A program made the position numbers and the translations under genes. Positions 990 through 16,125 of a stretch of DNA of 16,556 bases are shown here, piece by piece (the first letter of the stretch is position 1; each line of letters opens with the position of its first letter). Source of the DNA: Spirochaetota bacterium. Its GTDB lineage: Bacteria > Spirochaetota > Leptospiria > Turneriellales > Turneriellaceae. The stretch spans positions 1-16,556 of the forward strand of contig JAKQXK010000206.1 of assembly GCA_029561505.1 (NCBI GenBank), given 5' to 3'. The notes beneath the pieces were generated by a model. It was not told the DNA's origin and ran no database searches. It saw nothing but the letters and a program-made list of their open reading frames with translations.

Positions 990-2252
990 TCAGCTCACTG
1001 AATAGAGCTTCGTGCCCTTGGTTTTGCCGCGTAATTGCACTTCGGCCACTTCAACGGCGGTTATGCCCGGTGGCAACCGGTCTCTCACCGTTTCAGAAAA
1101 CAGCAGGCTTTTGCCGAAGTCTTTTGTCGCGCTTTCAATGCGGCTCGCGGTATTGACCGTATCGCCGATCACCGTATATTCGAGCCGACTCGCTGAACCG
1201 ATGTTGCCCGCGATGACGTCACCAAAATCGATGCCGATGCCGATACTGACCGGCATGCCGCTTTGCTGGTTCATCGCAGCCAGCGCCGCCTGCATTTCGA
1301 GAGCACATTTCACCGCACGCGCAGCGTCATCTTCAGCTGGTTGTGGAGTGCCAAACGTTACCATTATGCCATCGCCGATAAACTTATCGACTGTGCCCCC
1401 ATTTCTGTAGATCACCTCGACCATACGCTCATGGTAGTCGCGCAAAAAACTCACGGTTTCTTCGGCCGACATCTTTTCGCTCATCGTGGTGAAGCCACGA
1501 ATGTCAGAAAACAGCACAGCGGCTTTGACACGCGCACCACCGAAGCTGACCTGTTGCGTCACGATCGTTTCGCGTACAGCGGGCGAGAAATAGCGACCGA
1601 GTTCGGTGCTCGCTACCTCGAGCTGAGCTGCCTGATAGATCGATTTGCGATAAGAGTATGTGATCCACCCGAGCAGGCCGCCCATCACGAGCGCGCCCAA
1701 CGCATAAAGACTGACGTAGCCCGGTATAATCGCGGGCGAAAATGCATTCTGCACGAAATCTGTGGTGACGACCGTGCGAGGGTCGCTCAGCGCAATGGTC
1801 ATGAGTACCAACCAGATGGCGAGGTACGCAGCTGCCAGAATCAATGGGTAAGCAGGCCTCAGGGCCAGGCCGCTGATCAGAATAAAGATGTAGGCCCACA
1901 CGGGCAGGCTGGTCTTCAAGAGGTAAGTCGCCGGCACCAGGGAATATCCGCCGACTGAAGTGTACCACGTGTAGGGCAGAAACGCCATGATAAAGATCGA
2001 AGGCAATTGGCTGAGGTAGCCGATCGTTGTCAGGTAGCGATTGTTATAAACATACCAGAAAAGTATCAGCAGATAGATCGCGATAGCAGCTGAAGCAGCC
2101 GAAACCCAGACGACTTCGAGAATCGAATGGTGTGTGGATATATGCCCCAACGCAAGCCCGGCCGCCATGATGAGCCCGAACACCATGCTCACCATAAGGC
2201 CTGAGCGCTCGCGCTGGCGCAGAACAAGGTCAGCAGAGTTTGTCTGTCTCAT
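990..2252 (-). CDS. Multi-pass membrane class III adenylate cyclase
   Basis: A second cyclic-nucleotide synthase of 420 aa. About six hydrophobic segments (residues 17-200) form the membrane sensor. A helical linker with GRYFSPAVR (218-227) leads to the catalytic domain (about 240-400). Catalytic residues are complete: metal Asp in FSDIRGFT (D250) and DKFIGDG (D294), Lys K290, Asp D364, Asn N367 and Arg R371 in VIGDTVNTASRIE. Unlike the neighbour at 3-977 it has no HAMP domain, so the two should respond to different inputs. The ATG at 2252 is preferred because GGGGA lies 6 nt before it; a GTG at 2303 would add 17 residues but has only a weak ribosome site. A good sigma70-type promoter lies at 2329-2357. 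The signal sensed is unknown. Confidence 0.9.
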   Translation of the reverse strand: MRQTNSADLVLRQRERSGLMVSMVFGLIMAAGLALGHISTHHSILEVVWVSAASAAIAIYLLILFWYVYNNRYLTTIGYLSQLPSIFIMAFLPYTWYTSVGGYSLVPATYLLKTSLPVWAYIFILISGLALRPAYPLILAAAYLAIWLVLMTIALSDPRTVVTTDFVQNAFSPAIIPGYVSLYALGALVMGGLLGWITYSYRKSIYQAAQLEVASTELGRYFSPAVRETIVTQQVSFGGARVKAAVLFSDIRGFTTMSEKMSAEETVSFLRDYHERMVEVIYRNGGTVDKFIGDGIMVTFGTPQPAEDDAARAVKCALEMQAALAAMNQQSGMPVSIGIGIDFGDVIAGNIGSASRLEYTVIGDTVNTASRIESATKDFGKSLLFSETVRDRLPPGITAVEVAEVQLRGKTKGTKLYSVS

Positions 2253-2328
2253 GTCTTTTCCCCGACCCAATGCAGTTTTTGCGCCTTCGGCATTGCGCGA
2301 CACCAGGTACCGTTCGATGCTGAGAGCA

Positions 2329-2357
2329 TCAATAAGCAGTCAAATCTGAAAGTACAA
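2329..2357 (-). promoter_or_regulatory. Candidate sigma70-type promoter for the minus-strand cyclase
   Basis: On the minus strand TTGTAC (2357-2352) is separated by exactly 17 bp from TATTGA (2334-2329), close to the -35/-10 consensus. Transcription would begin near 2322, leaving a leader of about 70 nt before the preferred ATG. A small inverted repeat (GATGCT-GAG-AGCATC, 2316-2330) overlaps the start region and could be a regulator site or a 5' hairpin. Seen by eye; not tested. Confidence 0.45.
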
Positions 2358-2391
2358 CTTCAGCGACAAAAATGCAGCGCCTTGCCGCAGT

Positions 2392-3072
2392 CTATTCGGC
2401 GTCAGATTTTGTGGCAGCAGCCGTTCGTAAGGCTGCCAGAATCTTTACCTCAAGAAACTGTGCCAGCGCGGCCTGAGATTTTTTTCCCGCTGAGAGAGCT
2501 TCGGTTACACCGCTCAGCATGAGCATCGCGGCGCCGTGCATCGTGGCAAAAACGAACATCGCAGTGCCAAGCACGTCGCTCTGCACAATGAGACGTGCAT
2601 GCATCATGGCAGATATCTGCTCTGTGAGTATAGCAAATGAGCCGTTACCTTTTTCTTGCAGGTGGGGAAAAGCAGCATGATCAAAATGCGAGGTTCCAAA
2701 AATATATTGATAATAGTCGGGGTTATCAAAGGCAAATGCGAAATAGTTGGCGCACATCTTTTCGAGACGCAACTCGAGCTTTTCGGTGGCATAAAGCGGG
2801 GGCAGGTCGCGCAGAAGTGCCGCTGAAAAAAGCGTAAAGCCACGTTCGGCCAGCGCCGCCAGCAGGTGCTCCCGGGTGGGAAAATGCCGATAAGGCGCCC
2901 CGTGCGAAAAACCCAGATTGCGCGCTACCTTGCGAATGCTCAGCGAGCGCAGGCCTTCTTCGCGCAGCACACGCAGGCTTTCGTCGAGTATGGCCGTGCG
3001 CGAGTCATCGCTCACGGCATCTTGATCGGCTTTTTTAACAGTCTTTTTCTTTTGTACGGTTTTCGGCCCCAT
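2392..3072 (-). CDS. TetR-family transcriptional repressor, probable regulator of the divergent RND pump
   Basis: 226-aa DNA-binding repressor. A Lys-rich N-terminal tail (residues 1-16) precedes the TetR helix-turn-helix: ILDESLRVLREEG, then LSIRKVARNLGFSHGAPYRHF (about 28-64), then EHLLAALAERGF. The C-terminal ligand domain carries NPDYYQYIFG, typical of the WHG-type TetR C-terminal family. The ATG at 3072 is preferred: an AGAAAGAG stretch lies about 8 nt upstream. The longer reading from a GTG at 3177 would put the start in the middle of the palindromic operator and add residues unlike any TetR. It is divergent from the RND-TolC gene, with 133 bp between start codons holding the operator, which is the usual arrangement for a pump repressor that also controls itself. 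The ligand is unknown. Confidence 0.88.
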   Translation of the reverse strand: MGPKTVQKKKTVKKADQDAVSDDSRTAILDESLRVLREEGLRSLSIRKVARNLGFSHGAPYRHFPTREHLLAALAERGFTLFSAALLRDLPPLYATEKLELRLEKMCANYFAFAFDNPDYYQYIFGTSHFDHAAFPHLQEKGNGSFAILTEQISAMMHARLIVQSDVLGTAMFVFATMHGAAMLMLSGVTEALSAGKKSQAALAQFLEVKILAALRTAAATKSDAE

Positions 3073-3166
3073 AAAAACAGCTCTTTCTGCAAAAGCCAAG
3101 TTCAATACCCGCCGTCCATCAATGACAATAAGGCAGGCGCGCAGGCAGACACGCCAGTACCAAAAT

Positions 3167-3187
3167 TTTGTAGACACTGTCTACAAA
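3167..3187. promoter_or_regulatory. 21-bp perfect palindrome, probable TetR operator
   Basis: Arms TTTGTAGACA and TGTCTACAAA flank a single central C at 3177, a perfect 10+1+10 inverted repeat. It lies in the gap between the divergent tetR-like and RND genes, ending 18 bp before the preferred RND start. Size and symmetry fit a TetR dimer site. Repressor binding here would block both promoters. The binding itself is inferred. Confidence 0.75.
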
Positions 3188-3208
3188 CTAGTAGATATTG
3201 TCACTATG
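3188..3208. promoter_or_regulatory. Second, degenerate operator copy next to the RND start
   Basis: GTAGATATTGTC (3191-3202) matches GTAGACACTGTC of the perfect palindrome (3170-3181) at 10 of 12 positions and lies exactly 21 bp downstream, two helical turns. The outer right arm is not conserved. The site runs up to and includes the ATG at 3206, so binding would also cover the translation start region. It may allow cooperative binding of two dimers. Confidence 0.45.
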
Positions 3209-6200
3209 AACAATAATATTGCGCGATCGGGCTCTATGATTACGAGTCGGGCGAGGTTCTTCTGGTTTCTGGGGGGCGCATTCGCGCTCTATGGCCTGGT
3301 TTCGTGGTTCGTCGTCGCGAAAGAAGAAGACCCGAGGCTCAAGCCCCGGTTCGGCACAATCAGCGTGATTTATCCGGGTGCTTCGCCGTCAGAAATGAAC
3401 CAATTTGTCGTGCGCGAGATTGAAAACGAGCTCACGGCGGTTACCGGCATCGACCACCTCGACGTTTTGGTTCGCTCTGAATTTGCTTTCTTTAGAATTG
3501 AACTCAAGGGTTCGGTCGCCAGCGACGCTGCCATTACCCGTGAATGGGATGACGTCGACGCGGCGCTGAGGCGAGCCGAGGCCCATTTTCCGCAAGGTGT
3601 CATTAAACCAGAATTGAATCGCAAGGCGATGGACCAAGAAGCAATCATCATTGCGATCACCGGCAGTGAGAGCGCGCGGCACCGAGCGATGGTCGATCTC
3701 GAAAAAGAGGTCTATAAGCTGCGCGACGTCGCTGCTGTCACGAATATCGGTGACCCCGGCAGGCAGGTGACCGTGGCGCTGCGCCGTGAGCGCCTCGCCG
3801 CTTCGGGCCTGAACGCCGCTCAGGTTCTGGGCCAGATACAGCTCGCGAACCAGCGCCTTGGCGGTGGCAGCCTCGATGAAAAAGGGCAAAAAATCAATCT
3901 GAAACCCGTGAACGGTCTCGACTCTGTCGCAGAGCTGAAATCGCTCTACCTCGCGGTACCGCGCGGCGGTTCGATTCCGCTCGCACAGATTGCGAACGTG
4001 TCTGAAGCCCCGGTGACACCGGTTACCGAAGAGATGCGCTGGCAGGGCCAACCTGCGAGCGGGCTGGGTGTTGTGCCGCGGGCCGACATCGACCTCGTCA
4101 AATTTGGTCGCGCCGTGTCGACGACAGTAATCGCATTCGCGCAGAAAAATGCAGGTGATGCGAAAATTGAAATTATCAACTCTCAGCCCGATTTCGTCTC
4201 GGCGCGGCTGCGCGAACTGGCAATTTCTCTGGTCGAAAGTATGCTCATTCTGGGCGCAATGATGGTACTCACGATGGGCACGCGCGTCGGGCTACTGGTG
4301 GCGGTGATGCTACCAGTGATCAGCCTCATCGCGCTGGCCCTGAACACCATCGCCGGGGGGGTGCTGCACCAGATTTCGATTGCAGCTTTTGTCATGTCGC
4401 TCGGTATGCTGATCGACAACGTCATTGTTGTCACTGAAAGCGTGCAAGAGCAGATCGACCGGGGCATATCGGCGAAAGAGGCTGCCTCGCACACCGTATC
4501 GCAGTTTTCGGTTCCGCTGTTGTCGTCGACGTTAACGACAATAGCTTCTTTTCTGCCGATGCTGCTTGCAAAGGGCACAACCGCAGAGTTCACGTTCGCG
4601 ATACCGGCGATTGCGATTACGACGCTGAGCGTCAGCTGGGTGGCGGCCGTGTTTCTGACACCGGCGCTGGCGGCGTGGGGGCTTAAACCCGGCGGCGTGC
4701 GCGAATGGAAGTTCTTACCGTCTCTCAGCAACTGGGTGGCCGAAACTGCTCTGCGCAAAACCCGCCGGCTGTGGCTTGGCATTGCAGGTCTGCTCGTTGT
4801 GGCCACCTTGTCGGCGATCACAATCGGACAAAAGTTTTTTCCTTCTGCTGACCGCGATCAACTGGTCGTTGAAATACTGTATCCCGAGGGTGTGGCGTTT
4901 TCAAAAACCCGGGCCGCTGTGACTGAACTCGAAGCGCGTTTGTCGGCCGACGACAAGGTTTTGGCACACGCGGCATTTGTCGGGCGCAGCACACCCAGGT
5001 TTTATAATAATCTCAATCAATCGCCGAATGCCCCTCATCTCGCTCAGGTATTGGTGATGACCAAAGGCGTAAAATACCATAAGCAGCTCATGCGCACGAT
5101 TTCAGCTCTTGTGCTGCCAGATAACCCTCGCATTATCGTGCGTTCACTCGAACAGGGGCCGCCGGTACCTGCACCGGTAGAAATCCGCCTGATTGGCGAA
5201 GGCAACCTCATGCCCTACGCCGAGAGCATGGCAGCCGCGATCAGCAACGCTCGCCACGACGCCGAAGGCAGTGAGGCTTCGATTGAATTACGCCCGCGTG
5301 ACGCAAGCCTCGCCGACCAGGGCTTCTCGAGATACGATGTCGCGGTTGCGACCTTGCTGACGTCACGCGGCATCGGCGCGGGATTTTTTCGCACCCGCGA
5401 CGAAACCTGGCCGATTGTTATCGGGTATCCCGAGGCAGAAAAATCGACGATGAAAGATCTTAAACGATCGCTCGTCGGGCAGACATCAGACAGAGCCGTA
5501 TACGCCGCAGACACAACGGCAATTGTGAAGCGCACGGGCATCGGCGTGCTGCATCGCCGCGACCGAGAAAATGTAATTCGCGTATTGGCAGAGGTGGGGC
5601 CGGGTGAATCGGCGGGCAAGATTCTCGGTACCGCCAAAACCTATCTTGCCACTCATGCATTGCCCGATGGCGTGCGCTTTGAAGTTGGCGGCGAAGCGGG
5701 CGAATCGCTTAAGGCGAATGGCGCGATTATGGCTGCGATGCCGCTTGCGATGATTATTCTTATCGCGATTCTGATTTGGGAATTCAATTCAATCAAACTG
5801 ACGGGCATTATTATGACAAGCGTGCCGACGGCTGCTCTGGGCATTATGCCCGGGCTGGCGCTCGGCGGGCAATCGATGGGTTTCATGGCCATGCTGGCGC
5901 TCTTTGCCCTGATCGGCATTGTAGTCAATAATGGCATCTTGCTGATCGACCGGTTCAAATCGGCAGAAGCAGACGGCGAAAACCGGCAGAACGCTGTGCG
6001 TATTGGCATACGCGAACGCCTGAGACCGATATTGCTGACGAGCGGTTCGACGGTGCTGGGCATGGTGCCACTCGCCTTCACCGACTCGACGCTGTGGCCC
6101 CCGTTTGCATGGGCAATGATGTCGGGCCTTGCCGTCTCAACGCTGTTCACGCTGTTCATCGTGCCATGGCTCTACGCCAAACTGCCAGAGAAAAAACTCG

Positions 6201-7465
6201 GCATCAGCAAGCTTGCAGCAGTTGCTCTCATGAGCTTCTTTGTTGCGCCGGCGCTACCCGCCGCCGACGCCGCGCCAGTCATTAGCGTTCAAGAGGTACT
6301 TGAGTCTGCTGCAAAAGCGCCGCAGGCAAAGGCTGCCTGGCACCGCGCGGCCGCTGCACGACACGGCAAAACGGGCGAGCTTCTCGCCGTCTGGGGGCCG
6401 CGCGTCACTGCGGGTGCAGAATACATCGCACGCGATCGCGAGTTTTTTCTCGGTACACCGCTGGGGTCGTTTCCTTATGGGCGGCAGAACTATGGCCAGG
6501 CGGGTATTGAACTCTACCAGACATTGTGGAGCTCAGACGGAGCGCTCGCGCGTATACCTGCCGCAGACCGCAGAGAAAAGGCCGCGGCGCTCATGGCCGA
6601 TTGGGAAACCATGAGCGCGAGGTACTTCGCGGTTTCGCGGTTTTACGATTGCAGCGAACTGAAGCAACGGCAGACAATTCTGAATGAGCGCGTGGTGAAT
6701 CTGCGTAGTCTCGCCACAGAACTCGCACGCCTTGTCAGGGCAGGCCGCGGCCGTGAGATCGATCTGGCGAAAGTGCGCATGAGCCTCGCCGAAGCGACGC
6801 AGGCGGAGCAGAACCTCGGCAATGCGCGAGCGCTATGCGAAGACGACCTCGGCCGGCTTACTGCGTCGCCGGGTGCCCGCACCGCAGATGCGGGCAGTGA
6901 AACCACCACCACACTGCCCGCGGTCGGTGACACGAGCGAGCGCCCTGATCTGAAATCTCTGGCGATGCTGGTCGAGTCGCTGGCGATCGAACGCGATGGC
7001 GTTTTGCTCGAATCATTGCCCGAAATTTACGCCAAAGGCAACTATAACTATTTCGGGGCCCGGCAGTTCACACCCGAAGACTGGTTTCAGGCATCGGTCG
7101 GCGCACGATTTCGCCTGCTCGACGGCGGTACACAGATCGCGCGCAGACAGGCCAAATCGGCAACGCACGACGAGAAGCAGGTTGAGCTGGGCGATGCTCG
7201 GCGGGCGGCACAGAACGCACTGGTCGACAGCCACAACCGGCTGATCACCGCCGAGGCGCAGGTCGTTTTGATTCAGGGTGAACTCGAGGCTGCACAGCTG
7301 GCCCTCAGTCGTGAAAAGGGGCGCGTTGCGCAGGGCCGCGTACCGGCGACGGGGTTGCTCGAGGTCTACGATACTTACCACCGCAGGCGAGAGGCTCTGG
7401 TCATGACACGCGCTGCGTTCGGTCGCCTGTATTACCAGACTCTGTACCTACAGGGTAAATTATAG
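3206..7465 (+). CDS. RND efflux permease fused in frame to a TolC-like outer membrane factor
   Basis: 1419-aa polypeptide. Residues 1 to about 995 are a full AcrB/HAE-like proton-driven permease: first membrane helix (about 18-38), periplasmic start DPRLKPRFGTISVIYPGASP, TM4 motif GMLIDNVIVV (D404, N405), second half from about residue 525, TM10 GIVVNNGILLID (N908, N909), and RLRPILLTS (T945). After the last helix and LPEKK comes a signal-peptide-like segment: basic KLGISK (997-1002), hydrophobic 1003-1017, and a PAADA|A cleavage-like site at 1022/1023. The rest, about 397 aa, is a TolC/OEP-type outer membrane efflux domain rich in Ala/Glu/Arg helices with two repeats. Topology fits, because RND C-termini are cytoplasmic, so the segment could export the TolC part for signal peptidase cleavage. 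The ATG at 3206 is preferred over 3122, which lies upstream of the operator, though no good ribosome site is seen; 3236 is an alternative. No adaptor gene is nearby. Confidence 0.9.
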   Translation: MNNNIARSGSMITSRARFFWFLGGAFALYGLVSWFVVAKEEDPRLKPRFGTISVIYPGASPSEMNQFVVREIENELTAVTGIDHLDVLVRSEFAFFRIELKGSVASDAAITREWDDVDAALRRAEAHFPQGVIKPELNRKAMDQEAIIIAITGSESARHRAMVDLEKEVYKLRDVAAVTNIGDPGRQVTVALRRERLAASGLNAAQVLGQIQLANQRLGGGSLDEKGQKINLKPVNGLDSVAELKSLYLAVPRGGSIPLAQIANVSEAPVTPVTEEMRWQGQPASGLGVVPRADIDLVKFGRAVSTTVIAFAQKNAGDAKIEIINSQPDFVSARLRELAISLVESMLILGAMMVLTMGTRVGLLVAVMLPVISLIALALNTIAGGVLHQISIAAFVMSLGMLIDNVIVVTESVQEQIDRGISAKEAASHTVSQFSVPLLSSTLTTIASFLPMLLAKGTTAEFTFAIPAIAITTLSVSWVAAVFLTPALAAWGLKPGGVREWKFLPSLSNWVAETALRKTRRLWLGIAGLLVVATLSAITIGQKFFPSADRDQLVVEILYPEGVAFSKTRAAVTELEARLSADDKVLAHAAFVGRSTPRFYNNLNQSPNAPHLAQVLVMTKGVKYHKQLMRTISALVLPDNPRIIVRSLEQGPPVPAPVEIRLIGEGNLMPYAESMAAAISNARHDAEGSEASIELRPRDASLADQGFSRYDVAVATLLTSRGIGAGFFRTRDETWPIVIGYPEAEKSTMKDLKRSLVGQTSDRAVYAADTTAIVKRTGIGVLHRRDRENVIRVLAEVGPGESAGKILGTAKTYLATHALPDGVRFEVGGEAGESLKANGAIMAAMPLAMIILIAILIWEFNSIKLTGIIMTSVPTAALGIMPGLALGGQSMGFMAMLALFALIGIVVNNGILLIDRFKSAEADGENRQNAVRIGIRERLRPILLTSGSTVLGMVPLAFTDSTLWPPFAWAMMSGLAVSTLFTLFIVPWLYAKLPEKKLGISKLAAVALMSFFVAPALPAADAAPVISVQEVLESAAKAPQAKAAWHRAAAARHGKTGELLAVWGPRVTAGAEYIARDREFFLGTPLGSFPYGRQNYGQAGIELYQTLWSSDGALARIPAADRREKAAALMADWETMSARYFAVSRFYDCSELKQRQTILNERVVNLRSLATELARLVRAGRGREIDLAKVRMSLAEATQAEQNLGNARALCEDDLGRLTASPGARTADAGSETTTTLPAVGDTSERPDLKSLAMLVESLAIERDGVLLESLPEIYAKGNYNYFGARQFTPEDWFQASVGARFRLLDGGTQIARRQAKSATHDEKQVELGDARRAAQNALVDSHNRLITAEAQVVLIQGELEAAQLALSREKGRVAQGRVPATGLLEVYDTYHRRREALVMTRAAFGRLYYQTLYLQGKL

Positions 7466-7554
7466 TAGTTTCTTTTTTCAGAAAACTTTTTGGGCATACG
7501 CTAGCCTTCAAAGGCTCTCACCCGTGATTCGCGTCGCGAGTGAGTGCCCGCTCG
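7466..7554. terminator. Convergent gap with weak hairpins
   Basis: The RND-TolC gene and the AraC-type gene converge here. Visible structures are AGCCT-TCAA-AGGCT (7503-7516) and a bulged hairpin with arms CTCAC/GTGAG around TCGCG-T-CGCGA (7517-7544). Neither is followed by a clear T-run, although T-rich tracts lie at 7469-7478 and 7487-7491. A bidirectional terminator is possible but not convincing. Confidence 0.25.
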
Positions 7555-8391
7555 TCAGCCGCGTACGGGCAGGTAGACATCGACGATCGCCGTGGCATCA
7601 TCGGCACGCCGCAGGTAACTTTCAAAAGGCGGTGCATTTCTGAGTCTTATTTTTCGACGGGAAACTTCTGCGTTCATGAGGCGGTCGTACAGCTGCGGCA
7701 GATCTGTGTATGCACCATGGTGCCTGTAGACGGCATAACGCCCACCCGCGATAGAACGCACGGGCATATCTTTTGGGTCGAGCTTATCGGGCACCACAAT
7801 GCCGAGGTCGAACCTTATCTTTTGGCGCTCTGTAATATCGGGATCATCATTCGATACCCCGACCCAGCGCGCCGCTGACAAACCGAGGCCGGCTGCCACC
7901 ACCTCAAGTTGTTTTGTCAGCGTATGTGAGCTGATTGGGCCTGGCAGATTCGCGTAGTCGCCGACGTAGCGCACGTACGCGATTCTAAATGCGGGCACGG
8001 TGACAAAACGCAGCGGCATCACCTGCGGGTCGCCAGCCACCTGACTTAAGCTGCGTTGGCGCTTCGCCTTCTTATATGCGGCAGGGGCTTGCCCGAACTG
8101 CCGCCTGAACGCACGGGTAAACGCCTCGTGCGAGAGAAAGCCCGATTCGAAGGCGACCTCAGAGATGCTCTTTTCTGAAATCTTGATTTCGTAAGCCGCC
8201 CTTTCAAGAATCAACCGCCTGACATATTTACCGACGGGTTCTTTGGCAATGGCGCTGAAGCGCCGGCGAAAATGAAAGTACGACGACGCAGAAAGAAACG
8301 CCAGCTCGGCGAGCGAGATGTCTTTCGTCAGGCTTGCGTCAATTTTTGCAAAGACGTCATGCAACGCGCCGAAGCCGGCGTCTGGCTTCAT
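7555..8391 (-). CDS. AraC-family transcriptional regulator with C-terminal GyrI-like effector-binding domain
   Basis: 278-aa regulator of the Rob/BmrR-like fusion type. The N-terminal half carries two AraC helix-turn-helix motifs: DISLAELAFLSASSYFHFRRRF and SISEVAFESGFLSHEAFTRAF, followed by FGQAPAAYKK. The C-terminal half (about 125-278) is a GyrI-like small-molecule domain: FRIAYVRYVGDYANLP, RFDLGIVVPD, GGRYAVYRHHGAYTDLP, FESYLR, and a final DVYLPV strand. The usual WLP..SG segment is replaced, so the ligand may differ. The ATG at 8391 gives the family length and overlaps the end of the upstream gene by 35 bp; a start at 8505 would add 38 residues lying wholly inside that gene. It is the last gene of a three-gene operon and probably controls a stress or drug response. 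Confidence 0.87.
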   Translation of the reverse strand: MKPDAGFGALHDVFAKIDASLTKDISLAELAFLSASSYFHFRRRFSAIAKEPVGKYVRRLILERAAYEIKISEKSISEVAFESGFLSHEAFTRAFRRQFGQAPAAYKKAKRQRSLSQVAGDPQVMPLRFVTVPAFRIAYVRYVGDYANLPGPISSHTLTKQLEVVAAGLGLSAARWVGVSNDDPDITERQKIRFDLGIVVPDKLDPKDMPVRSIAGGRYAVYRHHGAYTDLPQLYDRLMNAEVSRRKIRLRNAPPFESYLRRADDATAIVDVYLPVRG

Positions 8392-11567: not shown

Positions 11568-13559
11568 TCAGCGCTTTTCAGGTATCTGCAGGCCGTACTT
11601 TTCCATTTTGGCGCGCAGCGTGTTGATCGTGATCTCGAGTTCGATCGCGGTCTGGCGCTGGTTGAAGCGGCGGCGCTGCAGGCATTCCCAGATGACTTCG
11701 CGTTCGGCGCGTTCGAGCGCGCTGAGTTTGGGCCCTTCGACCGCGCGCGGTGCTTCGCGCAGATTGAGGTATTTCGGTTCGAGCGCGGTGCCGGCCGTCT
11801 GCAGCAGCATCGCCTGCTCGAGCCTTACCTTGAGTTCAGCTGTGTTGCCCGGCCAGCCATAGTTATGCGCGGCGACGAGAAAGTTATTGGTGATCGCGGT
11901 AAACGGCAGCGCGCGTTCGCGGCATAGCCGCTCGGCGAAAAAGAAAATCTGCGCGCGCAGATCGTCGCGGCGCTGCGCGAGCGGCGAGAGGCTCAGCTGC
12001 GGCAATGCGTCGCAATAGGCGCGCTGGCCCGGTTCGGCGAGTTTGGCGGTTAGGTTATCGGCCGACTTCACGGTGAAATAGAGATAGGGCAGCGCGGGGT
12101 TGCCCATAACATAGTTCAGAAAAGCGGCGAGATCTTCGGGGCGCACCGCGTCGAGGTGCTTAATGATCACACCCGGCACGCGCGATGCGCTGTTTTTAAC
12201 TAAGCGTGCAAGGCGAGCCGCGAGATGGCGTGTCTGAAAGCCGCAGTCGATTTCGAGCACCTCACCCTGCGCGCGTAGGTGGTGCAGAGAGCGCGCGAGC
12301 GTGCTTTTGCCGACACCGGTATCGCCCGCAAAGACCACGGGCAGCCGGCTGTCTTTCAGCTGTTTCAGCTTTTCGACGACGGCGAAAAGTTCGGGCGATG
12401 TGACGAGCAGCTCGCGGCCAAACAGCGCCTGCGTGTCTTCTACAAGGCGCGCCTGGTCTGCAGCGTATAGGTCGATCGGCGACAACGGCAGCTCAATCAG
12501 TTTCGAGCGGTCGAACGTCTTCACGACGGCGCCGAGCCATTTATTGCTGACGAGGGTTTCGGCTTTGGTGAGGTAGAGCGCGAGGCGTTTGTTGTCGGCT
12601 TCGAGACGCACGAGGTTGTCGACGAGCCCCTGGTGCCACTTGGGCATCACCTGCTCGTTAAAGCGCGCGGGCGTTGAATAACCACCCGCCGATTCTTCGT
12701 TTTTCGCGTGCAGCTGCAGCGCGTCGCCGCCTTGCGTGACGAACGCAAACACATCTTTGAACTGGCGCACGTTGCCACCGACGATCGAGTTTAACAGTTC
12801 AACGAGGCGCGAGAGCGAAACGATATTCTCGCGGTGGTGCCATGCGGGCGACTGGTGCAGCCGGCCAAAAATATTGCGAATGAACAGCCATTGGCCACGC
12901 ACGAGCATATTAAAAATGCCGAACTGAAACAATAGCACACCGATCACCCCGAAAGCCGGGTAAACATAGTCTTTCACCAGAATCGGCATGAGGCCATTAT
13001 TCAGAATCGGAAACAAAAACCCGACGAAACCATAATCGCCGATCGAGCGCAGCTGAAAGCGCATGAGCGCACTTTCGCTGCGGCGGTAGGCAAGCGCCAG
13101 CGCGAAGAAGGTCGCGAGCACCGTCGCCGACTGCGCCACGACATAATAGGGGTGCAGCGGCCCGCGCACCGGCGCGAAGCCGCCCGGCACGGCGCGCACG
13201 CCGTCTTCGACGAAACCCAGCAGTGTGACAATCAGCAGAAAGGCACCGTTCGCGAGCACCGCATAGAGCAGAATGCCGCGTGGCAGCTCGGCGAATTGGT
13301 GAAAAAAGAGATAGAGCAGCGTGACGGCGAGACATCCCCCTGTGAAGGTGAGGCGTGATGCCAGGGCGATCTGGTTTGCGTCAAGAAAATCGGCGCGCAC
13401 GAGAATCAGCGGCGTCGCCCAGAACATGAGCGCCACCGCGAGGCCTGTAAAGAGCCAGCGCGTCTGCCGATCACCCAGCCGAATAAAGGCCATCGCAATC
13501 ATCGCGACGAGCGGCAGGTTGAAGACCAGAATCAGAGTCAGAGAACTAGAGATATTCAT
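11568..13559 (-). CDS. Membrane-anchored NtrC-like AAA+ regulator lacking the GAFTGA loop
   Basis: 663 aa. Residues 1 to about 225 hold seven hydrophobic helices resembling the 7TM sensor of some histidine kinases. A linker (about 235-385) follows, then an AAA+ domain: intact Walker A GDTGVGKS (412-419), a divergent Walker-B-like VIIKHLD (464-470) without the DE pair, RRDDLRAQIFFFAERLC (about 530-546) as in NtrC proteins, and sensor-II YGWPGNTAEL (567-576) with Ala at 574 in place of the usual Arg. A Fis-type helix-turn-helix ends the protein (NQRQTAIELEITINTLRAKM, 633-652). The stretch that should hold GAFTGA is missing, so direct sigma54 activation is unlikely. The start overlaps the ketosynthase stop by 14 bp, with AAGG upstream, so the two are co-translated. 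Perhaps a membrane-state sensor for the neighbouring lipid gene; that is inference. Confidence 0.85.
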   Translation of the reverse strand: MNISSSLTLILVFNLPLVAMIAMAFIRLGDRQTRWLFTGLAVALMFWATPLILVRADFLDANQIALASRLTFTGGCLAVTLLYLFFHQFAELPRGILLYAVLANGAFLLIVTLLGFVEDGVRAVPGGFAPVRGPLHPYYVVAQSATVLATFFALALAYRRSESALMRFQLRSIGDYGFVGFLFPILNNGLMPILVKDYVYPAFGVIGVLLFQFGIFNMLVRGQWLFIRNIFGRLHQSPAWHHRENIVSLSRLVELLNSIVGGNVRQFKDVFAFVTQGGDALQLHAKNEESAGGYSTPARFNEQVMPKWHQGLVDNLVRLEADNKRLALYLTKAETLVSNKWLGAVVKTFDRSKLIELPLSPIDLYAADQARLVEDTQALFGRELLVTSPELFAVVEKLKQLKDSRLPVVFAGDTGVGKSTLARSLHHLRAQGEVLEIDCGFQTRHLAARLARLVKNSASRVPGVIIKHLDAVRPEDLAAFLNYVMGNPALPYLYFTVKSADNLTAKLAEPGQRAYCDALPQLSLSPLAQRRDDLRAQIFFFAERLCRERALPFTAITNNFLVAAHNYGWPGNTAELKVRLEQAMLLQTAGTALEPKYLNLREAPRAVEGPKLSALERAEREVIWECLQRRRFNQRQTAIELEITINTLRAKMEKYGLQIPEKR

Positions 13560-14799: not shown

Positions 14800-15285
14800 T
14801 ACTACCAGCCACCCCCCGACGACGAACCGTCAACAAATTCTATACTATAGCTAGAACAGCACCACCCAACCCCGCAAGACCACCAGACCGCAGTTCAAAC
14901 AGGCAGTCATTAAAGGGTAGGATCTCTCACGCTTCTGTACCGGCCCACCTACCCAAACCGGCACACCCCACTGACCCAACCCGCGCCCAAGGGCAAATCT
15001 GCCACCCCAGCGCCCTGAAATTGCCGTAAAATTTCATATACTTCATTTTTTGACATGTACATTATTTATTTATACTGGTTGACGCTCCGTATATACCAAC
15101 CACCGATGCCGCCAACCCGGTGCCCGCGCCGACCGTTTCACCAATCATATTGCGGGCATTGGGTTTTTTGTTTGTGGGGGGCATTTGTGTTGCGTGAAAT
15201 AATCGCTGGGTCTGCCAAGCACTTGGCCAGAGGACAGTAATTTATAGAGGGTCAGGATAAATTGTTGAAGAAAGGAGTTCAAGAG
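14800..15285. other. Long intergenic region between divergent ketosynthase and lipoprotein genes
   Basis: 486 bp with no convincing gene. The left part (14800-15030) is C-rich on the plus strand and includes an 11-bp palindrome CTATACTATAG (14840-14850) in a TATA-rich patch that could hold the ketosynthase promoter (minus strand). From about 15010 composition shifts to A+T-rich and stays so through the lipoprotein gene. A 61-codon frame (15055-15240) has no ribosome site or recognisable family. I see no RNA gene. Confidence 0.6.
15050..15076 (+). promoter_or_regulatory. Possible promoter for the lipoprotein
   Basis: A perfect -35 TTGACA (15050-15055) and a good -10 TATACT (15071-15076) lie in an A+T-rich patch, but the spacer is only 15 bp. 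If used, the leader to the ATG at 15286 would be about 200 nt, which is long and unexplained. Confidence 0.3.
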
Positions 15286-16125
15286 ATGGCAAACAGAAAA
15301 TACGCAAAGATCATTCTTGTTGTATCACTAGTGGTTCTCGTTTCCACAGCATGTGGCGGCAGTAAGAGTTACGTAAAGGTTGAAAAAACACAATTTGTTG
15401 GCGTAATGCAAAGGCCGGTAATAATACCCTTGTATATGGAACAAAATATTTTTCCGCAGGCTAAAATCGAAGCGCTTGGACTCAAGTTTTCAGCAGAATA
15501 TCAGACACTCGTAAACAAGAATTTTAAGGAAAGAGCGCGGCGATTTGATGATGTGCTCTTGTCTGTTTTGGGCAAAGGTAGGCAGACTATTTTAGCCAAG
15601 CCTCTTCTAGATAGCGACGTTTCAAAAGCACCCTTAGCCTCTCATGGCGAATTCAGCTCGCACAAAATATATGAGAGCGAATACTTTTTTATAAAGCCAG
15701 AGAAAATTGCAGCTCTGTCAAAAATGTACCCCGAAGCATCGAGCTTCGTTTTCCATTTCGCTAATGTGCAACGCACATGGGGTTACTTTCGGCTTTACAA
15801 GGGTTATGTCGTAATGCCGCAAGCGGCCATTTGGTACAACGTTGTCGTTTATGACAGACAAGGCAAGATTGTTTATGGTGGCATTGAGGAAACGCAGGGG
15901 CAAACAGATGCCTATAGCTTCTCGCCTAAACAAGTAACCTACAAAGAGGGCAATTATAAACTCTTGGCATTAGAAAAGGAAGAACTTGATAGTGCTTGGA
16001 AAGGTAGATATAAAATTGCAACCATAGAGCCATCGGCAGTAGCCTGGGTGGAAATCGAAGCCGAGACTTTCAAAAAGCAGATGTTAGACACCGGGGGTCT
16101 CTATCGAGAACTAGCTCTCCCATAG
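15286..16125 (+). CDS. Orphan lipoprotein of unknown function
   Basis: 279 aa. The N-terminus is a lipoprotein signal peptide: basic MANRKYAK, hydrophobic IILVVSLVVLV, and lipobox STAC with C23 as the lipidated residue, followed by GGS. The mature part has no motif I recognise; it looks soluble, mixed alpha/beta, with beta-rich segments near VVMPQAAIWYNVVVYD and a final acidic/aromatic stretch. The ATG at 15286 is chosen because AAGGAG lies 8 nt upstream; a TTG at 15262 would add eight residues before the natural signal peptide. Codon use is clearly richer in A and T than in the flanking genes, suggesting a different origin. It stands alone, followed by a repeat cluster. Location (inner or outer membrane) cannot be decided. 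Confidence 0.85.
   Translation: MANRKYAKIILVVSLVVLVSTACGGSKSYVKVEKTQFVGVMQRPVIIPLYMEQNIFPQAKIEALGLKFSAEYQTLVNKNFKERARRFDDVLLSVLGKGRQTILAKPLLDSDVSKAPLASHGEFSSHKIYESEYFFIKPEKIAALSKMYPEASSFVFHFANVQRTWGYFRLYKGYVVMPQAAIWYNVVVYDRQGKIVYGGIEETQGQTDAYSFSPKQVTYKEGNYKLLALEKEELDSAWKGRYKIATIEPSAVAWVEIEAETFKKQMLDTGGLYRELALP

Follow-up and report, generated by a model that had tools for sequence, protein, structure and literature searches.

We describe here a gene in a 16,556-nucleotide stretch of DNA (the window) from a spirochaete of the class Leptospiria which joins, in one frame, a resistance-nodulation-division (RND) efflux permease and a TolC-type outer-membrane factor (OMF). The assembly is a draft (722 contigs, 83% complete), in which the window makes up contig C260. 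The frame runs on the forward strand from 3206 to 7465 without an internal stop, and its 1419 residues (coding 3206-7462) are ordered as RND permease (residues 1-992), junction (993-1022) and TolC-type channel (1023-1419). Both halves are complete according to Pfam, AlphaFold2 and Foldseek. An uninterrupted frame with a complete permease followed by a complete TolC-type domain had been proposed in the initial annotation, and this was borne out by the stop-free frame, by the ACR_tran and OEP matches and by the fold model. Judging from sequence comparison, we consider it likely, with a probability of roughly 0.77, that the product is an RND efflux pump polyprotein which would be cut by signal peptidase I and would supply permease and duct 1:1.

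The permease half (3206-6181, forward strand) matches Pfam ACR_tran over residues 18-992, covering profile positions 11-1019 of 1021 (E 2e-115). Its closest relatives among PDB sequences, matched over nearly the whole length, are MexK and 6vej, which we take to be TriC, and its class is probably HAE-1, TriC/MexK-like. Unlike the window protein, these nearest solved relatives, TriC (6vej) and MexK (20yy, 9xwg), are not fused to an OMF. Among the aligned fused proteins, the aspartate of the proton relay in transmembrane helix 4 (TM4) is kept in 41/41, the TM11 arginine in 42/42, and an asparagine stands in 42/42 at what is presumably the TM10 lysine position of AcrB. The TM4 pair is Asp-Asp in TriC and MexK and Asp-Asn in the fused family; in TM10, Arg in the former corresponds to Asn in the latter. 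A change of the proton relay specific to the fusion was considered and rejected, since the unfused relatives L079 and L080 share the Asp-Asn/Asn pair. The OMF half (6272-7462, forward strand) matches Pfam OEP in two stretches, the best at residues 1246-1415 (E 1e-20, 74 bits), and the genome scan places two OEP repeats at 6290-6850 and 6941-7450. An AlphaFold2 model of residues 1000-1419, built from 43 aligned sequences, reached a pLDDT of 91.1; it has four long strands (1066-1076, 1094-1109, 1273-1283 and 1291-1301) and two long helices of 67-69 residues, the pattern of a TolC protomer. Indeed, Foldseek aligned OprN, CusC, OprM, CmeC and TolC to this model with TM-scores of ~0.76-0.81 over ~400 columns.

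To establish how widely the fusion occurs, we searched 392 Spirochaetota genomes, 48 of them in the window's class, with P0001 at E 1e-60. The fusion was present in 9/392, uncut in eight and cut by a contig end in the ninth (G022), and all nine genomes belong to the Leptospiria. Besides the window, the fused frame is stop-free in G004, G009, G020, G008, G012, G030 and G040; G004 is a two-contig genome and its fusion is 63% identical. The next matches beyond the fusions are unfused permeases at no more than 28% identity. A database search with the OEP part returned eight proteins, namely the query's own entry and seven relatives (P0003-P0009, 1415-1440 residues), so that homologues with the joined architecture were found both there and in other spirochaete genomes. 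Both Pfam domains are recorded for seven of the eight, and P0007, which carries no precomputed OEP match, aligns across the whole OEP part at 57%. A search from P0009 gave 49 proteins (P0009 included), every one with both domains; seven of them carry organism names, all Acidobacteriota (four assigned through their order or family). From 35 permease parts we built a likelihood tree, which has midpoint rooting only and long branches and leaves out the CusA type. One of its branches, with support of 100/100, sets apart 13 Spirochaetota-type rows (8 loci and 5 proteins from databases) together with 14 from the P0009 branch; L084_4, a fusion from G058, lay outside this clade on a very long branch. 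By sequence, the TriC/MexK-like fused family is apparently spread over two phyla.

The junction (6182-6271, forward strand) reads KLPEKKLGISK, then LAAVALMSFFVAPAL, then PAADA|AP, that is, a K/R-rich stretch, a hydrophobic core at about residues 1003-1017 and an ADA|A site like those of signal peptidase I; the signal-peptide-like segment of the initial annotation thus reads as described there. A positive stretch, a hydrophobic core and an AxA-type end were together scored with a home-made grammar (not SignalP), and the window junction has all three. In the aligned Spirochaetota fusions, TM12 is likewise followed by residues rich in K/R and then by a hydrophobic core, which in most cases leads to an AxA-like end. 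Mean pairwise identity is 0.20 in the junction, 0.66-0.80 in the permease end just before it and 0.41-0.46 in the OMF after it. Among non-redundant fusions, 66/71 carry the grammar (5/5, 43/45 and 18/21, the last being of the CusA type discussed below), and shuffled junctions passed on average in 0.6 of 5, 6.1 of 45 and 2.2 of 21; a looser earlier version of the score gave 7/7, 47/49 and 117/119. These counts leave out P0002, the query's own 100% identical entry, and include 119/120 CusA-type proteins, P0169 having no anchor motif; P0138 and P0139 are kept as failures even though their anchor is apparently misplaced. The fused loci L029-L036 stand outside the 71 proteins, and their junctions were read separately. 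That the grammar is kept while the letters are not strengthens the reading of the junction as an internal signal peptide, and its simplest origin would be a signal peptide retained through the merger of an OMF gene with the permease gene next to it. In L083, a relative in which the two are not fused, the last 4 bases of the permease gene also belong to the OMF gene. The same grammar is found in the CusA-type L085_5 and its Bacteroidota kin, with junctions ending in ANAQ, and in L084_4, ending in ALAQ; to judge by their sequences, both look like fusions separate from the window family.

From the joined frame, the completeness of its two parts, their conservation and the junction grammar, all directly observed, we infer the following course of cleavage, location, trimer assembly, regulation and transport. 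Residues 1-992 would enter the membrane as an ordinary 12-helix permease with its C-terminal end on the cytoplasmic side, and the K/R-rich stretch with hydrophobic residues 1003-1017 would then act as an internal signal peptide, N-in/C-out, crossing the membrane a 13th time. Export of the C-terminal 397 residues would follow, signal peptidase I would cleave at ADA|A, and the freed TolC-type protomer would trimerise in the outer membrane, with the signal peptide remaining on the permease as a tail helix. A single transcript, probably TetR-controlled, would yield equal numbers of permease and duct. A comparable arrangement is the FbcH cytochrome b/c1 precursor of Bradyrhizobium, in which a polytopic membrane protein, an internal signal sequence and an exported protein are made as one chain and cut; FbcH serves a respiratory complex, whereas the window protein would serve a pump. 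The precursor cut by signal peptidase that the initial annotation had envisaged has gained comparative support for its signal peptide from the junction grammar, cleavage itself being still deduced from sequence. The tension that it saw between 1:1 synthesis and a finished pump that needs three of each does not arise, as three of each is itself 1:1.

Several points weigh against this reading. The grammar score was written after the sequences had been seen and was tightened once, and an AxA is easily found in alanine-rich junctions. The grammar is less clean in the junctions of L032, L033 and L036. The spread of the fusion is patchy, with 2/7 genomes of the window's genus carrying it.

The strongest rival, which we nevertheless consider unlikely, is an uncut chain, a 13-helix permease that keeps its OMF domain anchored to the inner membrane and works in one piece. 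It agrees with a single polypeptide, and the AlphaFold2 model, in which the junction is a low-confidence helix, does not distinguish cut from uncut. However, the first OMF helix of the model begins ~6 residues past the predicted cut site and, given the geometry of tripartite pumps, so short a link could not hold a channel in the outer membrane while fixed in the inner one, which argues against a tether. Moreover, an AxA-type end would be needless for a tether, yet most fusions retain it. It is very improbable that separate translation, beginning inside the gene close to the junction, supplies most of the OMF, the full-length protein being a by-product. Although a Met stands at the head of the junction in P0003, P0005 and P0006-P0008, window codons 987-1008 include no ATG, GTG or TTG, so that an internal start is unsupported by the window DNA; the first ATG is codon 1009, inside the hydrophobic core, and no ribosome-binding site was evident by eye, no dedicated scan having been made. 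We give as little credence to an OMF domain that has decayed or been repurposed and has lost the ability to form a channel in the outer membrane: the OEP score of 74 bits is moderate, but each of the four long strands and two long helices is predicted at high confidence and solved OMFs match structurally over near full length. Finally, an erroneous join of two genes in sequencing or assembly, to which so fragmented a draft might be prone, can be dismissed with near certainty, because stop-free fusions recur in G004, at seven other loci (one cut) and in seven database proteins besides the query, and the stop codon or frameshift at residues 990-1010 that the initial annotation had named as the sign of two genes was sought in the relatives' fused loci and proteins and found in none.

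The signal-peptidase-cut polyprotein would provide permease and duct; the third component of such a pump is the periplasmic adaptor (membrane fusion protein, MFP). We read the gene surroundings of 8 unfused relatives, and in each of them a full-size adaptor frame of 350-393 residues adjoins the permease (Pfam-checked in 3/8); that of L078, with 376 residues, was left out of A5. Directly upstream of the fusions of G008 and G012, and sharing 4 bases with them, lies a gene for a lipoprotein-like protein of 268-269 residues. This protein matched no Pfam family, and its profile aligns to the C-terminal half of canonical adaptors with a probability of 94.6. The model of the G008 protein has lipoyl, barrel and MP domains and no helical hairpin, and among solved structures BesA ranks first for it, with a Foldseek TM-score of ~0.46 and an rmsd near 11, a low score that in our reading of the models may come from different hinging. 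At the same place and with the same 4-base overlap, G030 and G040 carry proteins of 226 and 260 residues that align only to the C-terminal region of adaptors (probability 82.7) and that, as we read their sequences, probably have no lipoyl domain. Reduction of the adaptor in these four sister loci is well supported. At four loci, those of the window, G004, G009 and G020 (the window locus, L029, L030 and L031), none of the genes next to the fusion was recognised as an adaptor gene, although one may be encoded elsewhere or have escaped recognition.

Adaptors elsewhere in these genomes bear on whether the pump could do without one. In G004, TIGR01730 and PF16576 give an identical set of four adaptor loci, two with MacB-type ATP-binding cassette (ABC) genes according to Pfam and one with ABC-like frames identified by eye (L043). 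For the fourth locus (249 kb), a counterpart exists in the genome of the window (L046:112-2349, contig C104), a 745-residue frame in which HlyD-type domains follow ~370 residues without a Pfam match; an OEP gene adjoins it, and no ABC domain was found there by Pfam. Since this counterpart has HlyD domains but no ABC domain, the odds of an adaptor-free pump are slightly lowered. Nor was an adaptor recognised beside any of the four other RND permeases of G004 (L047, L048, L049 and L050), so its absence in this genome is not special to the fusion; one of these four adjoins an OEP-domain protein. In G009 and G020, adaptors are present beside other RND genes and could serve the fusion in trans. Small MFP genes (G000:C54, G004:C1:4192622, G009:C86, G020:C9 and G022:C116) were rejected as partners, each being immediately followed by a permease and ATPase frame of ABC type (frame starts read by eye; Pfam MacB_PCD and FtsX for the G004 permease only). 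It is a tentative and rather doubtful proposal that in the window's branch the pump has no periplasmic adaptor at all, the freed duct docking directly on the permease trimer and one gene making an envelope-spanning pump. As an overall interpretation, the initial annotation is partly supported, namely for a precursor with both parts complete; it missed the reduced or unrecognised adaptor and the fact that the architecture is already common among CusA/CzcA proteins.

Indeed, the RND-channel domain order is already known from databases as CusA/CzcA: the OEP part of L085_5 has 1151 matches, both domains are present in 120/120 of those listed, and the named ones are mostly CusA/CzcA of Bacteroidota. 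These proteins resemble ours in having ACR_tran and then OEP in ~1455 residues with a signal-peptide-like junction ending in ANAQ. They differ in belonging to the heavy-metal efflux (HME) class, whereas the window protein scores 138.8 bits against TIGR00914 (CusA/CzcA heavy-metal RND), below the cut-off of 701.45; unlike the window, L085 also has a HlyD_D23-matching adaptor sequence nearby, in two frames ~1.2 kb apart. L085 (positions 1515-8377, G018) is itself a CusA/CzcA-type RND-OEP fusion in the window's class, and the ~97% identity of its OEP part to Bacteroidota-named proteins suggests recent transfer. A third RND-OEP fusion, of 1502 residues and with a signal-peptide-like junction ending in KALAQ, lies in G058 (L084:3511-8022). 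Another likeness is the BesCAB pump of Borrelia burgdorferi, whose adaptor BesA is hairpin-less according to PMC3807786: this too is a spirochaete RND pump with a reduced adaptor, and the G008 adaptor model is most like BesA. In that pump BesB and BesC are distinct proteins accompanied by BesA, whereas in the window's branch permease and channel are fused and no adjoining adaptor gene was recognised. No description of a natural RND-OMF fusion was found in the open-licence literature, including passages of PMC8277102, PMC11213822, PMC3807786 and PMC4446572. What appears to be new, as far as sequences tell, is the TriC/MexK-like fused family, its two-phylum spread and the reduced or unrecognised adaptors that go with it.

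Expression of the fusion is probably controlled by a divergent TetR-family repressor, encoded at 2392-3072 on the reverse strand (Pfam TetR_N and TetR_C_33; probable start ATG, with CAT at 3070-3072). A TetR homologue lies near the fusion at 8/8 uncut loci, window included (Pfam-checked in 7/8). Between the two genes, at 3167-3187, we found a perfect 10+1+10 inverted repeat, TTTGTAGACACTGTCTACAAA, a probable TetR operator that also forms an arm of 11 with one mismatch. In 2000 mononucleotide shuffles of 3072-3215, a perfect arm of at least 10 occurred in 0 and an arm of at least 11 with one mismatch in 1. Weaker repeats, whose arms are of the GTAGAC, GTAGTC or GTTGAC type, are present in G004, G009, G012 and G020, and none with such arms was seen in the stretch chosen for G008 (six loci looked at, G030 and G040 left out). 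A promoter-like TAGACA-17-GATATT (3171-3199, forward strand; a consensus match only) overlaps the operator, and as the ATG at 3206 lies 7 nt past it, the fusion mRNA may be leaderless. The genes lined up with the fusion in G004 encode a metallo-hydrolase-fold protein, what looks by eye like a dehydrogenase, and a lipoprotein-like member of the polyketide-cyclase/lipid-transport family, neighbours that hint, speculatively, at a lipid-like or hydrophobic substrate. Elsewhere in the window, two convergent adenylate/guanylate cyclase genes (30-977, forward; 990-2303, reverse) lie beyond the TetR gene, with 12 bases between their ends. A 663-residue protein (11568-13559, reverse) with a partial sigma-54-activator match, an AAA lid and a Fis-type helix-turn-helix is possibly a degenerate activator, and a 287-residue protein (15262-16125, forward) is lipoprotein-like by eye, with no Pfam match at 0.1. 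An Rfam scan of the window gave 0 matches, and the A3 profile hit nothing significant among PDB sequences.

To conclude, how permease and duct meet has long been argued, with direct contact set against a gap held open by adaptor hairpins. A natural series with a shrinking adaptor and a fixed 1:1 ratio of permease and duct would make the minimum parts of a pump directly testable. If the window's branch does work without an adaptor, the joining of the genes would be one step in a stepwise loss, from a full adaptor through loss of the hairpin and then of the lipoyl domain to loss of the gene. The seemingly separate fusions, each keeping a signal peptide at the joint, would suggest that bacteria have repeatedly used polyprotein processing to build machines of the cell envelope.

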